Shown in pieces: positions 1,304-24,752 of a stretch of 25,890 bases of DNA. A program made the position numbers and the translations under genes. Location: positions 1 through 25,890 of the IMG/VR virus record IMGVR_UViG_3300035698_005917; one strand, written 5' to 3'. This stretch comes from a virus. The notes beneath the pieces were generated by a model. The model ran no database searches. It was not told where the DNA came from and saw only the letters and a list, made by a program, of their open reading frames with translations. How positions within the stretch are numbered: the stretch's first letter is position 1; each line of letters begins with the position of its first letter.

Positions 1304-1533
1304 AACGATTTAGTATCACCTAAAATATATTGCAGTATCCTGTACGCCCCATAACTCACCCCATTCGGGGTATAACCTAATTGCTTGTTTATGACCGCTA
1401 CAAACCCTTTCTCACGGACTATTTCTATACGAGCAGAGAATACCCATCCCCACGATGATTTTCTATATCCTAGCTTACACAAGGCATCATCTGCTTGTGT
1501 GGCTTCTATAGCTATTCTTTCTTTTGTGTTCAT
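1300..1533 (-). CDS. Unknown small protein
   Basis: A 77-residue protein, MNTKERIAIEATQADDALCK..., with no motif I can name. Its start overlaps the stop of the replication gene (TAATG) and its stop overlaps the next start (ATGA), so three genes form a coupled translational unit. That places it with replication or early functions, but nothing in the sequence shows a specific role. Confidence 0.6.
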   Translation of the reverse strand: MNTKERIAIEATQADDALCKLGYRKSSWGWVFSARIEIVREKGFVAVINKQLGYTPNGVSYGAYRILQYILGDTKSL

Positions 1534-2261
1534 TAAAAAGGTAAACTCAACTTACTTGCTATTGTACTTCTATTTTTTGTGTACTTGTTATCGCTTAATA
1601 GTTCTCTTGTCTTGTCTATATCCTTCTGGCGTTGATCGCTCTGCTGTTTGTATGGGTCTACTATCTTTTCTAATACATCATCCCACCGCTCCTGGTTAAG
1701 CCAAGTCATCGGATTAGGGATAAACTGGCTTTCGGTTCCGTCTACTTTCCATTTCTTGAGGTGTGCATTAAGCCCATTCATAATTTCAGACTCCTTTTTC
1801 TTTGAGGTGGCCAGCTTCATGTACTTAGATTTACACTTCGGTTTTGCGACCTTCTTCGGGTACAGTTTCCAGAAAGAATTAAAATCGCCTGTGTGTTTCT
1901 TTACATTAACATTATCATTAACAGTTACATTAACATTAACACTATCAGCTAACTTTGCTACACTTTGCTTAGCACTTTTAGCACTTGCTAGGTTTGCTAC
2001 AGAGTTCTTAGCTTTTGCTAGCCCACCCAAACGCCCAGCCTCACGCCTCTTTTCTATTTCTGCGTTCCATTTGTCACATTCTCGATTAAGGGTGTTTTTT
2101 ATTGGAAGGAATGCAACACGTTCCATTTTTGACAATTCGTACTCCTCATCGCGTTGGTGTGCAACTATGGCCCTAAATAAATTAGCGACCTCTTTATCGT
2201 TAAGTTCGTTGAGAATATCTAGGCTATCGAGGTATAAAATAAATGATTTTTTGCTCACCAT
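1533..2261 (-). CDS. Phage replication-initiation type protein (DUF6291-like N-terminus, DnaT/O-like C-terminus)
   Basis: A 242-residue protein. The N-terminal third (KKSFILYLDSLDILNELNDKEVANLFRAI) resembles the domain that opens many phage replication or replisome-organiser proteins. A low-complexity linker follows (residues about 85-125, rich in VNVNVTVN). The C-terminal part contains FWKLYPKK ... W ... FIPNPMTWLNQERWDD, the usual signature of helix-rich replisome-organiser C-termini. The expected role is loading of host helicase at the phage origin; that is family knowledge, not seen here. AGG directly abuts the ATG, which is poor Shine-Dalgarno spacing; a GTG three bases on is an alternative start. 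A 236-nt structured leader precedes it. It is coupled to the next gene by TAATG. Confidence 0.7.
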   Translation of the reverse strand: MVSKKSFILYLDSLDILNELNDKEVANLFRAIVAHQRDEEYELSKMERVAFLPIKNTLNRECDKWNAEIEKRREAGRLGGLAKAKNSVANLASAKSAKQSVAKLADSVNVNVTVNDNVNVKKHTGDFNSFWKLYPKKVAKPKCKSKYMKLATSKKKESEIMNGLNAHLKKWKVDGTESQFIPNPMTWLNQERWDDVLEKIVDPYKQQSDQRQKDIDKTRELLSDNKYTKNRSTIASKLSLPF

Positions 2262-2497: not shown

Positions 2498-2863
2498 TCA
2501 GCTATATCCATTTTTCTCTCGCCATTTCCAAGTCCTACGATCACGCTTTTCAAGCTTGCCAACTGCGTAATCATCTCCACGATTGCCGAGGCTCGTACCA
2601 CGCTCGTGTTGTTCTTGGTGGTGGTCTATACAACGGATATCGCCTCCAGCAGTTGTGTCGTAATCGGGGTGGCTTCGTTGATGGGTTTCGGGGTGATGAG
2701 CTGCATCTACCATGTAACCATCTTGAAAGCGTTTTTCACACCCGACCTCTTGACATTCCCAGCCGTCACGCTTGCCTATTGCCTTGCGGACTCCAATAGT
2801 AAAAGCGAATAATGGAACTACTAAACATAGCCCCATGTACCAAAACGGTAACAATGCGTTCAT
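2498..2863 (-). CDS. Membrane-tethered HNH-like endonuclease
   Basis: A 121-residue protein from the ATG at 2863, chosen because GGAGGTG stands 4 nt before it, one of the strongest ribosome binding sites in the window. The longer frame from 2887 begins inside a terminator T-tract. Residues 6-24 (LPFWYMGLCLVVPLFAF) form one membrane segment followed by RKAIGKR, so the C-terminus should be cytoplasmic. Residues 32-92 look like an HNH/zinc-finger nuclease: DGWECQEVGCEKRF (C37, C42), DAAHH (H56, H57), then CIDHHQEQH (C78, H81, H82, H86). An HNH fold behind a membrane anchor is unusual. The role may be cleavage of DNA at the membrane, for instance incoming DNA, but that is inference. It sits after the lysis cassette, behind a leader peptide and terminator. 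Confidence 0.65.
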   Translation of the reverse strand: MNALLPFWYMGLCLVVPLFAFTIGVRKAIGKRDGWECQEVGCEKRFQDGYMVDAAHHPETHQRSHPDYDTTAGGDIRCIDHHQEQHERGTSLGNRGDDYAVGKLEKRDRRTWKWREKNGYS

Positions 2864-2884
2864 ATTACACCTCCATGTAAAGAA

Positions 2885-2908
2885 CAAAAAAGAGGCTACT
2901 CGGCCTCT
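2885..2908 (-). terminator. Intrinsic terminator/attenuator before the HNH-like gene
   Basis: On the minus strand AGAGGC (2908-2903), a 6-nt loop, GCCTCT (2896-2891) and a T-tract TTTTTT (2891-2886). It lies between the leader peptide at 2907-2939 and the HNH-like gene at 2863. The leader stop codon TAG overlaps the first bases of the stem, a layout expected for transcription attenuation. Confidence 0.8.
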
Positions 2909-2939
2909 AAATCACGGAATATTTTGCTGAATACTTCAT
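2907..2939 (-). CDS. Putative 10-residue leader peptide (MKYSAKYSVI)
   Basis: An ATG at 2939, 6 nt after a perfect TATAAT (2951-2946), opens an 11-codon frame. Its TAG stop overlaps the terminator stem at 2908-2891. The peptide repeats K-Y-S (KYS..KYS). The position between promoter and terminator, and the stop in the stem, resemble attenuation leader peptides. It has no ribosome binding site and would be translated leaderless. It is too short to be certain as a gene. Confidence 0.4.
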   Translation of the reverse strand: MKYSAKYSVI

Positions 2940-2945
2940 TAGTTG

Positions 2946-2951
2946 ATTATA
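2946..2951 (-). promoter_or_regulatory. -10 element of unit 4
   Basis: TATAAT preceded by TTG on the minus strand, 6 nt before the leader-peptide ATG. No good -35 is seen 16-18 nt upstream. Transcription would begin at or next to the ATG at 2939. Confidence 0.5.
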
Positions 2952-3000
2952 CAATATATTGTGGTCATTAGTCTATGAATCACCAGATATAGGCTATTAG

Positions 3001-3050
3001 TGAAAGAAAGGGTAGGGGTTAAAGCATGAAAGCTGTAGTAACCCCTACCC
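3001..3050 (-). terminator. Long-stem terminator of unit 3
   Basis: A perfect 11-bp stem (3050-3040 with 3020-3010) around a 19-nt loop with a small inner AGC/GCT stem, followed on the minus strand by TTTCTTTCA. The T-tract is interrupted, so efficiency is uncertain. No T-run follows on the plus side. Confidence 0.55.
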
Positions 3051-3110
3051 ATATTGCCTGTACCGGAGTACGGCAAAGACCTGTTAAGGTCAGAATGTGG
3101 CTTGTTAAAG
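3001..3110 (-). ncRNA. Structured small RNA of unit 3
   Basis: About 110 nt from the expected start after TATAAT at 3122-3117. It contains four hairpins in order: A, GCUU-UAAC-AAGC (3111-3100, whose 5' base may lie just before the start); B, GACCU-UAAC-AGGUC (3091-3078); C, TTGCC-GTAC-tccg-GTAC-a-GGCAA, 9 bp with one bulge (3076-3054); D, GGGTAGGGGTT with AACCCCTACCC, 11 perfect bp (3050-3010), then TTTCTTTC. Hairpins A and B share the UAAC loop. I recognise no known RNA family. A 64-codon frame across it (3133-2939) is probably chance. Confidence 0.5.
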
Positions 3111-3116
3111 CTAGAG

Positions 3117-3122
3117 ATTATA
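3117..3122 (-). promoter_or_regulatory. -10 element of unit 3
   Basis: TATAAT preceded by TAG on the minus strand, directly after the T-tract of the preceding terminator. No convincing -35. It precedes the four-hairpin RNA. Confidence 0.45.
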
Positions 3123-3126
3123 CTAT

Positions 3127-3152
3127 AAAACAAAAACCCCCATCGCTGGAGG
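3127..3152 (-). terminator. Intrinsic terminator of unit 2 with GNRA loop
   Basis: On the minus strand CCTCCA (3152-3147), loop GCGA, TGGGGG (3142-3137), then TTTTTGTTTT. Six pairs including one G-U, closed by a GNRA tetraloop, with a strong T-tract. Confidence 0.8.
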
Positions 3153-3197
3153 CTGTTGTTATTGGAGTATCTGACAAAGATACAAAGTTACATTAGG
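3127..3197 (-). ncRNA. Putative short RNA of unit 2
   Basis: About 70 nt between an extended -10 promoter (TGGTATAAT, 3212-3204) and the GNRA-loop terminator at 3152-3127. Its only ATG is followed at once by TAA, so it is unlikely to encode a peptide. The function is unknown. It could be a regulatory or decoy RNA, or only a by-product of a terminator-promoter junction. Confidence 0.4.
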
Positions 3198-3203
3198 TAG
3201 TTT

Positions 3204-3212
3204 ATTATACCA
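3204..3212 (-). promoter_or_regulatory. Extended -10 promoter of unit 2
   Basis: TGGTATAAT on the minus strand (TG at -15/-14 and a perfect -10). It overlaps the end of the T-rich tail of the upstream CUUCGG terminator, so termination and re-initiation are back to back. Confidence 0.55.
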
Positions 3213-3240
3213 TAAAACAGAAACAGGCCCGAAGACCTGT
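3213..3240 (-). terminator. Terminator after the holin, CUUCGG tetraloop
   Basis: On the minus strand ACAGGTC, loop TTCG, GGCCTGT (3240-3223), then TTCTGTTTT. Seven pairs including one G-U; the loop is the very stable C(UUCG)G type. On the plus strand the wobble becomes a C-A mismatch, so it works for minus-strand transcription. It ends the lysis-cassette transcript and also a short transcript from the -10 at 3289-3284. Confidence 0.85.
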
Positions 3241-3283
3241 AACTGCTAAATTGAGTTCACAACATGAATGTAGTGAAGAACCT

Positions 3284-3289
3284 ATTATA
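3284..3289 (-). promoter_or_regulatory. -10 element of unit 1, just after the holin stop
   Basis: TATAAT preceded by GTG on the minus strand, 3 nt beyond the holin stop codon. No -35 is evident. It would give a transcript of about 65 nt ending at the CUUCGG terminator, with a possible internal TTCAC/GTGAA stem. It is the weakest of the four units in evidence. Confidence 0.4.
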
Positions 3290-3291
3290 CA

Positions 3292-3558
3292 CTACTTCCC
3301 TTCAAGTACACTATCAAGTTTCAATTGTTTAAGTACAATCTCGTAGACAAGCTGAGAGCTACCAAAAACGATTGAAAGATTTTCAAGCACATTCGATACC
3401 TGTAGTGACCCATCATAGAGTCCTAACCCCACTACAGCCCCTAGAGAAGCTACCAGTGCTATCCCTGATGCCTGTAATCTGCTGACTTCTATATACCGCC
3501 TAAGAATTGCGACAAAAAGAGTTACAAGCACGCCAACTACCATTGCTATTGTTTCCAT
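3292..3558 (-). CDS. Holin-like membrane protein
   Basis: An 88-residue protein with two hydrophobic segments (about residues 4-18, METIAMVVGVLVTLFVAIL, and 31-48, GIALVASLGAVVGLGL) and a charged C-terminus, the usual shape of a class II holin. In phage lysis such proteins open the inner membrane so the endolysin can reach peptidoglycan. The context agrees: an M23 endolysin lies just upstream and a strong terminator just downstream. Its ATG overlaps the stop of a micro-membrane protein (TAATG). The exact family was not identified. Confidence 0.75.
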   Translation of the reverse strand: METIAMVVGVLVTLFVAILRRYIEVSRLQASGIALVASLGAVVGLGLYDGSLQVSNVLENLSIVFGSSQLVYEIVLKQLKLDSVLEGK

Positions 3559-14335: not shown

Positions 14336-14360
14336 AGAGATTAACTCTAAAATTATCTAG

Positions 14361-14386
14361 CGGAAGGGGTGAATACACCCCAACCG
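14361..14386 (-). terminator. Strong hairpin after the capsid gene
   Basis: CGG-AA-GGGGTG-AATA-CACCCC-AA-CCG on the plus strand: a 6-bp GC-rich stem with a 4-nt loop and an outer 3-bp stem across an internal loop. It lies 18 nt after the capsid stop. No T-tract follows on the minus strand, so it may block 3' decay or cause partial termination rather than full termination. Confidence 0.55.
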
Positions 14387-14404
14387 TTAAACAACGTACA
14401 ACTT

Positions 14405-16361: not shown

Positions 16362-17795
16362 CTAAGCCGATACCGTTCCGGATATCCCACCGCTTAATAC
16401 AGTTCCGGAGGTTGCCCCGTCATCGAGGGTGGCTGTTATTGCATTAGTAGTTACCACCCCATTAATCTGTACCGGTGCTTGTTGACCTGAAATTGCGTAC
16501 TGTAACCCAAGCGATAGAAGGGTGCCACCACTCATGACATATTCTAAGCCTAACTGAGTACTCACTTCAGATAGCACCGAGTAATCCAACTCCCTTGTAG
16601 GCGATGTAGACGTGGTTATTGAGTAATCCAACCCCCTTGTAGCACTAGAGCCGGTCTGAATCGAGTAGTTTAATGCTCTTTGAATAGCAATTGACCCGGT
16701 AGTTGTTACCGTATATCCCATCTCTAATTGCGTAGTAGCGGCTGTTAAAACGTTGTAGTCTAGTACCTTTTGAGCCGAAACAGGTGATTTTACGCTATAT
16801 TCGAGAATTTTCTGTTCAGAACTGCTTATTTCCACTGAATAACTGGCTACTTTTGTAGTGCCGGAAGCTGTCAATAATGAGTAATCTAAACCCTTTGTGC
16901 TGTCGCTTTGTGTTAATACAGAATATTCGGCCGCCTTTGTAGCTGAATCGCTTGTTAAAATAGTATAATCTGCGTCCTTTGTAGCTGAATCGCTTGTTAA
17001 AATAGTATAATCTGCGTCCTTTGTTGTTGAGCTATCAGTCAATATTGAATAATCTGCGCCCTTAGTTGTTGAGCTATCAGTCAATATTGAATAATCTGCA
17101 CACCTTGTTGTTGACGAACCCGTTTGAACCGAATATCCGAGCGTCTTTGTAACTGAAACAGTAGTAGAACCGTAGTCGATTGTAGGGTGGGCTACTTCTG
17201 TTGTCCCATTTACCGTAGCAGTTACGCTACCAATATCAATATCGCCTGATGTATCGGTCAGTTTCATATAAAAAGTTGCAGAACTGACTTGGTCTGCTGA
17301 CAACCCACCTGCTAAATCGGAAATATCACCTACTGATAGTACAGAGTTCCACATTGCAACCTCAGCTATAGCCCCATCGTAATGTCTTTGCTCACTACCA
17401 CTATTAAACTGCATACCGATAGAAGCATAACCACTTGTCGGAGTGTTCGGGGTGTTTGTAACACTTGTTGACTTTGTGCCATCAAGATATAAAGAAAGCG
17501 TACCTGAATCTCTTATAAGCAAGAGGTGTTGCCATGTTGCATCGGTCATTGTTACACCAGGGTCAGCCCACGCCACAGAACCCAACAACCCTACATACTT
17601 GCTACCGCTACTATCAAATGCCGCCCCTGCGAACATACCATAGCCACCCGCATCATCGCCATTGCTAAATATACAGCCCGTAGCCTGTGCCAAATTAGGC
17701 TTAACCCAAGCCTGTATCGTAAAGTCATCTGTTGAAGTACTAATCCTATTTGATAGAGTTACATCGTCCGTGCTGTTATTGAATGAGAGTGCCAT
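16362..17795 (-). CDS. LamG-domain protein with 14-residue tandem repeats, probable virion decoration/fibre
   Basis: A 477-residue protein. Residues 1-180 resemble a LamG/concanavalin jelly-roll (SFNNSTDDVTL, DDFTIQAWVKPN, TWQHLLLIRDSGTLSLYLDG, YDGAIAEVAMWN), likely to bind carbohydrate. Residues 221-437 contain about fifteen repeats of 14 residues with consensus YSxLTxSSTTKxAD; one copy is 16 long. A short glycine/threonine-rich tail follows (ATSGTVLSGGISG). Such repeats may form a beta-solenoid or extended fibre. It lies in the head gene region between portal and protease, so a capsid-surface decoration or head fibre is a fair guess; a tail-tip role is possible. It starts with TAATG overlap. 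Confidence 0.7.
   Translation of the reverse strand: MALSFNNSTDDVTLSNRISTSTDDFTIQAWVKPNLAQATGCIFSNGDDAGGYGMFAGAAFDSSGSKYVGLLGSVAWADPGVTMTDATWQHLLLIRDSGTLSLYLDGTKSTSVTNTPNTPTSGYASIGMQFNSGSEQRHYDGAIAEVAMWNSVLSVGDISDLAGGLSADQVSSATFYMKLTDTSGDIDIGSVTATVNGTTEVAHPTIDYGSTTVSVTKTLGYSVQTGSSTTRCADYSILTDSSTTKGADYSILTDSSTTKDADYTILTSDSATKDADYTILTSDSATKAAEYSVLTQSDSTKGLDYSLLTASGTTKVASYSVEISSSEQKILEYSVKSPVSAQKVLDYNVLTAATTQLEMGYTVTTTGSIAIQRALNYSIQTGSSATRGLDYSITTSTSPTRELDYSVLSEVSTQLGLEYVMSGGTLLSLGLQYAISGQQAPVQINGVVTTNAITATLDDGATSGTVLSGGISGTVSA
16485..17135 (-). repeat. 42-nt coding tandem repeats
   Basis: About fifteen in-frame 42-nt units encode the 14-residue repeats. Copies at 16934-16975 and 16976-17017 are identical. 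Copies at 17018-17059 and 17060-17101 differ at two bases. The outer copies are much more diverged, so the centre of the array has expanded recently. Confidence 0.9.
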
Positions 17796-23135: not shown

Positions 23136-23810
23136 CTATTTCTCGTATTTACATTTACTAGGGTATAGGGTATCTAACCACTCTAGCAACTCCCCTGCGT
23201 TGTCGTTAGTCGATACCACATCTGCGCATGGTGGGATGTACTGGATATCTTCAGAACTTCTTACCTTATGATCTCTAGTTCTCTTGCCTCCTATTCTGTT
23301 TAGGGTTCCGTACATACATCTAAAGCTTGAATCAGGGTATGGGTAGTACTCGTCTACCATTTCTATAAACTTTGCCTTGTTTATTATCATGGGCTTATGA
23401 AGAGCGTAATCTTTAGCATTCGGGAGTATCCTTAATACGTTTAACATTCTATCTAAGTAGTGCCCTGCTAGTCCGTAACCTCGCATTGTGAGCACTCTCT
23501 CTTTAAGCGACCCGTTCTGGTAATTAGTGGGCTTCGTGTCTCTCAGGAAAATAAAATCATCATTCATAAAAAGGAAGTCTTCTGATACTCTCTCATCGTT
23601 ACACGCCCCTAGGACCTTGTAGACCACGTTTGACGATGGGTCTTGCTTGTCATCGGTACCGGGGATATATGATAGGCCCTTGCCCCATGTAGGATTACCG
23701 CCTACTATGTATACGTTGCCATGTGCGACCCTGGCCAAGCTCCTTAACGAGTATTTAAGCTCTCTGTAGTCGTCATCTGATTTATCTCTGAGTACGTATA
23801 CTATATCCAC
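23136..23810 (-). CDS. Stealth-like glycan phosphotransferase/glycosyltransferase
   Basis: A 224-residue protein with GTG start. DIVYVLRDKSDDDYRELKYSLRSL at the N-terminus and FLFMNDDFIFL (NDD at residues 83-85), plus ALHKPMIINKAKF, match the conserved regions of the Stealth family (hexose-phosphate transferases of capsule synthesis) and related phage enzymes. The NDD acids probably bind a metal or sugar nucleotide. In a phage it could modify the host surface to exclude other phages, or sugar-modify virion parts or DNA; the sequence does not say which. It is a short form for the family. It precedes the terminase operon. Confidence 0.7.
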   Translation of the reverse strand: MDIVYVLRDKSDDDYRELKYSLRSLARVAHGNVYIVGGNPTWGKGLSYIPGTDDKQDPSSNVVYKVLGACNDERVSEDFLFMNDDFIFLRDTKPTNYQNGSLKERVLTMRGYGLAGHYLDRMLNVLRILPNAKDYALHKPMIINKAKFIEMVDEYYPYPDSSFRCMYGTLNRIGGKRTRDHKVRSSEDIQYIPPCADVVSTNDNAGELLEWLDTLYPSKCKYEK

Positions 23811-24743: not shown

Positions 24744-24752
24744 ATTATAGCA
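24744..24752 (-). promoter_or_regulatory. Extended -10 promoter, leaderless type
   Basis: TGCTATAAT on the minus strand, then ACCCT and the ATG at 24738. Perfect -10 and TG extension, in the 19-nt gap after the previous gene. Confidence 0.65.

Follow-up and report, generated by a model that had tools for sequence, protein, structure and literature searches.

The copies of LhrC, a small RNA of Listeria monocytogenes, are clustered, and the OOP RNA of phage lambda has a terminator of its own. LhrC is present as five small structured RNA copies per genome that end in terminator hairpins (PMC4132741), OOP is a short phage RNA made from its own promoter, pO (reviewed in PMC12197685), and the Racrs are stand-alone, promoter-driven phage RNAs, three of which, of type V-A, are active inhibitors (PMC10651486). 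The phage locus described here, a short block of four predicted promoter-RNA-terminator units, resembles LhrC in holding several small structured RNAs with terminator hairpins, but the LhrC copies are homologous and chromosomal, whereas the units of the block have no sequence relation to one another and belong to a phage. With OOP and other stand-alone phage sRNAs the units would share short length and a promoter of their own, but those sRNAs have been described singly, and the word "tandem" is absent from the review (PMC12197685). The Racrs are likewise small, promoter-driven and intergenic (PMC10651486), and a terminase relative of our phage (G001) carries a candidate, but no CRISPR-repeat-like element was found in the four units on checking for a Cas12a-type handle and for Rfam families. 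Unit 4 approaches a leader-peptide attenuator, its short ORF ending where the stem of a terminator begins, with a gene downstream; the unit 4 peptide differs in being leaderless, in having no obvious run of regulatory codons and in preceding an HNH nuclease. The parts are ordinary, each kind of component being known, and it is the four-unit array that is unusual; our search of the open-access literature turned up no account of a phage with three or four unrelated autonomous RNA units in tandem, an absence that is weak evidence.

The window, i.e., the whole stretch of DNA that was analyzed, is a 25.9-kb virus record in which all predicted genes lie on the minus strand, in the order terminase, portal, major head protein, tail genes and a lysis-like group with a small membrane protein as its last member. 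Its head-protein matches in bacterial genomes are generic, mostly to Firmicutes prophages at 30% identity or less. The block is the 428-nt gap 2864-3291, just after the lysis genes and between a holin-like gene and an HNH gene. The holin-like protein had no match in the family databases searched; it aligns weakly (about 25% identity) with small proteins that occupy this position in four other phages, and we use the name because of its size, its position and this alignment. The features are given below in the direction of transcription, with RNA starts assumed to lie about 6-8 nt past the -10.

3292-3558, minus strand: upstream gene, small membrane protein, holin-like
3284-3289, minus strand: P1, TATAAT with TG directly before it, 3 nt past the holin-like stop codon
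3213-3277, minus strand: predicted unit 1 RNA, about 65 nt
3277-3256, minus strand: 5' hairpin of unit 1, UUCACUACAUUCAUGUUGUGAA
3240-3223, minus strand: terminator T1, ACAGGUCUUCGGGCCUGU, UUCG, tail UUUCUGUUUUA
3204-3209, minus strand: P2, extended -10 TGG-TATAAT, with its -35 region inside terminator T1
3126-3197, minus strand: predicted unit 2 RNA, about 72 nt
3183-3167, minus strand: hairpin of unit 2, GUAUCUUUGUCAGAUAC
3159-3130, minus strand: terminator T2, GCGA loop, 13-pair stem, tail to 3126
3117-3122, minus strand: P3, TATAAT without TG
3001-3111, minus strand: predicted unit 3 RNA, about 110 nt, with up to three hairpins before the terminator
3111-3100, minus strand: unit 3 hairpin GCUU-UAAC-AAGC
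3091-3078, minus strand: unit 3 hairpin GACCU-UAAC-AGGUC
3076-3054, minus strand: unit 3 hairpin UUGCCGUAC-UCCG-GUAC(A)GGCAA
3050-3010, minus strand: terminator T3, perfect 12-bp stem, tail UUUCUUUC
2946-2951, minus strand: P4, TATAAT with TG directly before it, and TAGACT at -35 with an 18-nt spacer
2884-2939, minus strand: predicted unit 4 RNA, about 56 nt, starting at or next to the ATG of the ORF
2907-2939, minus strand: leaderless 10-codon ORF, MKYSAKYSVI*, ATG 6 nt past the -10 (from the sequence)
2908-2891, minus strand: terminator T4, AGAGGCCGAGUAGCCUCU, tail UUUUUUGUU
2874-2870, minus strand: Shine-Dalgarno GGAGG of the HNH gene (from the sequence)
2498-2863, minus strand: downstream gene, HNH endonuclease (phrog_119, E 2.6e-4)
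1533-2261, minus strand: replication-initiation-like gene (phrog_270, E 1.3e-18), next after the HNH gene

The gap 2262-2497, before the replication gene, has very strong structure on the minus strand (MFE -77.3, z -6.2). It contains long inverted repeats and a pair of GTCGGTTGCTT direct repeats, and may be a replication origin or encode a large leader RNA. Elsewhere in the window, 23136-23810 shows weak Stealth_CR2 similarity (E 3.6e-6, under the Pfam cut-off) in a protein that sits between a NinG-like gene and the terminase genes and is unusual in a phage; 100-681 encodes a pentapeptide-repeat protein and 16362-17795 a LamG-domain protein with internal repeats DYTILTSDSATK.

An initial annotation of this DNA had reported four minus-strand TATAAT hexamers (at 3289, 3209, 3122 and 2951), each followed by a hairpin and a T run. 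All four hexamers are present where claimed, and hairpins with T runs follow them at 3240-3223, 3159-3130, 3050-3010 and 2908-2891; the stem of T2 had been understated, having really 13 pairs. Scored with one fixed rule set, the minus strand of the block contains four TATAAT and four hairpin/T-tract terminators in strict alternation, i.e., four units, and its plus strand contains no TATAAT, no terminator and no unit. Among 2000 dinucleotide shuffles of the block the mean was 0.34 terminators and the maximum a single alternating unit, with four terminators or four alternating units in 0/2000, and shuffles of the region gave a mean of 0.39 TATAAT and reached four in 0/5000; since the block was picked for looking unusual, these results are not clean probabilities, though the margin is still large. 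The TATAAT count on its own is only moderately unusual, at least four per 407 nt having appeared in 19/200 shuffles of the whole window. The base composition given in the initial annotation (A and T each near 0.29) was approximate, the minus strand having A 0.33 and T 0.25, and the expectation of one TATAAT per about 1.7 kb stands. The block is non-random. A chance origin of the array is ruled out by the shuffles, an assembly artefact is unlikely in a block without a long repeat, and protein coding was rejected as well, the 64-aa and 56-aa ORFs of the block having no PHROGs match. Outside the block, nearly all of the terminator-like hairpins that lie between genes of the window are in the short gap 14336-14404.

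A promoter is predicted from sequence ahead of all four units, with a perfect TATAAT in 4/4 and TG in 3/4: the strict extended -10 occurs only in P2, P1 and P4 have an adjacent TG, and P3 has none. The -35 regions are poor, the best matches to TTGACA being 3/6 for P1, 2/6 for P2, 2/6 for P3 and 4/6 for P4. Intergenic sequence outside the block (1333 nt) holds seven TATAAT on the minus strand versus one on the plus strand. By a looser definition that we chose after inspection (TG upstream of the hexamer, either adjoining it or one base away), TG accompanies 10/11 intergenic versus 0/7 coding TATAAT (Fisher P 2.5e-4); for the strict TGn form the counts are 6/11 versus 0/7 (Fisher P 0.038). By sequence, then, the -10 boxes of the block resemble the likely promoters used elsewhere in the phage. 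Four of the latter, the minus-strand TGn-TATAAT at 24749, 19054, 16331 and 6340, each lie 6-7 nt ahead of a start codon, a spacing that has been taken as the mark of leaderless genes (PMC3160421), and Shine-Dalgarno sequences are present at few genes of the phage; because of this spacing and this scarcity, several phage genes probably use leaderless mRNAs.

Each of units 1-3 is predicted to form hairpins of its own ahead of its terminator, and these three fold beyond shuffled sequence (z -5.8, -3.2 and -6.1, respectively), the z of unit 4 being only -1.4. The four hairpins with T-tracts have the form of intrinsic terminators, the tails of T1 and T3 being broken by C or G. The alternation, the strand asymmetry, the folding z-scores and the phage-like -10 boxes all argue for the promoter-short RNA-terminator reading of the initial annotation, which we keep as a prediction. 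Unit 4 has a different build: the stop codon of MKYSAKYSVI* (2909-2907) reaches into the base of the T4 stem (from 2908) and the HNH gene then follows, so that, as in an attenuator, a short ORF ends at a terminator upstream of a gene. No alternative antiterminator hairpin is evident in the fold of 2939-2841, and no regulatory codons are evident in the peptide.

For comparison with other phages we had a set consisting only of distant relatives, found by protein searches. Among the phage records and fetched loci there was no DNA relative of the block and no sequence homologue of any unit. The closest comparable phage, G011 (L017), has a major head protein 50% and a tape measure protein 47% identical to ours and a similar gene order, and its 96-nt gap between holin-like and HNH-like genes holds one terminator; pairwise comparison left the homology of its lysis proteins unproven, so its synteny is judged from order, size and the homology of the structural genes. 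The stem of that single terminator (L017:15012-15107), CTACTTTTGTAG, equals the 12-base core of a Cas12a handle in G001 (L002), which is probably a coincidence. In G012 (L112, L196), in which one lysis-side protein matches (E 6e-6), a holin-like gene is followed by two small ORFs, TGA-TATAAT, a predicted 77-nt RNA (z -6.0), a strong terminator and an HNH-like gene, the promoter-RNA-terminator unit occupying L196:7462-7602 on the minus strand. The 5' GUACGCC of this RNA is the complement of GGCGUAC in the loop of its terminator, so that a pseudoknot is possible. In G001 (L002, L011), the terminase of which is 40% identical to ours, two predicted elements lie in the interval from a holin-like gene to an integrase (PF00589): an RNA with several hairpins and a terminator (z -5.3), and a unit in which TGA-TATAAT is followed by a 5' hairpin and a terminator (z -4.9). 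G007 shows no such array within the stretch seen. None of these units shows sequence similarity. On conservation in relatives, which the initial annotation had raised, the picture is mixed: none was found in sequence, G011 has one terminator in the equivalent gap, and two other phages have one unit each there.

Applied to 193 other loci (2.4 Mb, of which about 287 kb is intergenic), the rule set used for the block gave only single units, 57 in all; a second tandem cluster did not occur. Comparable junctions, about 777 nt together, hold two single units against 0.15 expected (P 0.011), a modest, post hoc indication that the post-lysis junction is a preferred place for such units. The best reading is that the array is specific to its lineage and was probably added at the late-operon terminator.

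In a search for function, no unit exceeded shuffled controls as antisense to the start regions of the phage's own genes, and nothing longer than 7 nt was found in pairing between units or pseudoknots within them. Rfam includes CRISPR repeat families; no Rfam family rose above chance in the block, and a Cas12a-type CRISPR mimic was rejected for the window units, in which no handle is present. Such an element does occur in G001 (IMGVR_UViG_3300025018_000077), where L002:11496-11611 consists of TGT-TATAAT, AATTTCTACTTTTGTAGAT, about 40 nt and a strong terminator, in a stand-alone unit that adjoins the terminase and portal genes, away from the post-lysis junction. We take AATTTCTACTTTTGTAGAT to have the form of a typical Cas12a repeat handle, which makes this unit a candidate type V-A RNA anti-CRISPR.

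Several separate small RNAs are probably made from the block, and with confidence a little better than even we read it as a cluster of autonomous small-RNA cassettes at the end of the late operon, the last of which doubles as a leader for the HNH gene. T1 would stop late (structural and lysis) transcription. P1, P2 and P3 would act as promoters of the host type, with a -10 or extended -10 but no good -35, each starting an RNA of 65-110 nt with a 5' part that folds into one or more hairpins and an intrinsic terminator of its own to end it; these three RNAs are predicted most likely to be trans-acting, on functions of the host or the phage. P4 would give a leaderless mRNA for the 10-residue leader peptide, and because a ribosome at the stop codon, which abuts T4, would hinder that terminator and let transcription run on into the HNH gene, the most likely role of unit 4 is that of a leader sensitive to translation. 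The transcription of the units, the activity of the terminators, the direction of control and any target are all things that we infer.

The position of the block, with the late genes on one side and the HNH and replication genes on the other, the direction of all units towards the HNH gene and the one terminator at the same point in G011 would also suit a transcription gate, in which the terminator stack keeps late transcription from reaching the HNH and replication genes, tandem promoters restart it and the short RNAs are by-products. We regard such a gate as possible but doubtful: transcripts from P1-P3 would end before the HNH gene, so these are not restart promoters, the 5' hairpins and the multi-hairpin RNA ahead of the terminators are not needed for it, and G011 manages with one terminator. 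It is less likely still that only the HNH leader matters, with P4/T4 an attenuator and P1-P3 weak or non-functional. P4 does have the best -35 (4/6) and leaderless spacing, the peptide stop abuts T4, and the HNH-like gene of G012 has a promoter, a structured RNA and a terminator immediately ahead of it, but the -10 boxes of units 1-3 are as good or better, their folding is stronger and their terminators are equally clear. That each unit mimics a host RNA, as an RNA anti-CRISPR comparable to the solitary repeat units of the Racrs or as another anti-defence RNA, draws on the stand-alone, promoter-driven nature of the Racrs (PMC10651486) and on the TGT-TATAAT unit of G001 with its handle and terminator; we consider it quite improbable for the window units, which lack the handle, any Rfam family above chance and any repeat-like element common to them. 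Least plausible of all is a DNA-level structure, i.e., inverted repeats serving as a replication origin or packaging site: the hairpins are dense, lie near the replication gene and form in both DNA strands, but the T-runs and TATAAT are confined to one strand, and the gap 2262-2497 next to the replication gene, with its direct and long inverted repeats, is the better origin candidate.

Within the cluster of small-RNA cassettes that we prefer, two junctions share a direct repeat (family D2):

3117-3137, plus strand: copy a, ATTATACTATAAAACAAAAAC, tail of T2 plus P3
3204-3224, plus strand: copy b, ATTATACCATAAAACAGAAAC, tail of T1 plus P2

The copies are 21 bp long and 19/21 identical (90%), with unit 2 between them. 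Because the T1/P2 and T2/P3 junctions share this repeat around unit 2, duplication or exchange of units at D2 may be supposed, which suggests that units have been gained or duplicated through recombination at T-tract/promoter junctions. An unlikely extension of this idea is that the post-lysis junction would serve for the exchange of "RNA morons", i.e., self-contained promoter-RNA-terminator cassettes, that might be gained and lost like moron genes through recombination at shared T-tract/promoter junctions; just as tentatively, such cassettes could deliver fast-evolving RNAs against host defences, and by analogy the Cas12a-handle unit of G001 might be a recognizable cassette of the same kind, though it lies elsewhere in its genome.

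Maps of phage genomes list proteins and mostly leave short intergenic blocks blank. If these units are transcribed, this one 428-base gap would encode three or four separate RNAs, and the single units in two other phages would mark a common RNA site in a poorly known group of phages. Because the junction holds none, one or four units in related phages and the anti-CRISPR candidate of G001 has the same format, the exchange of RNA-gene cassettes between phages would become a testable idea.
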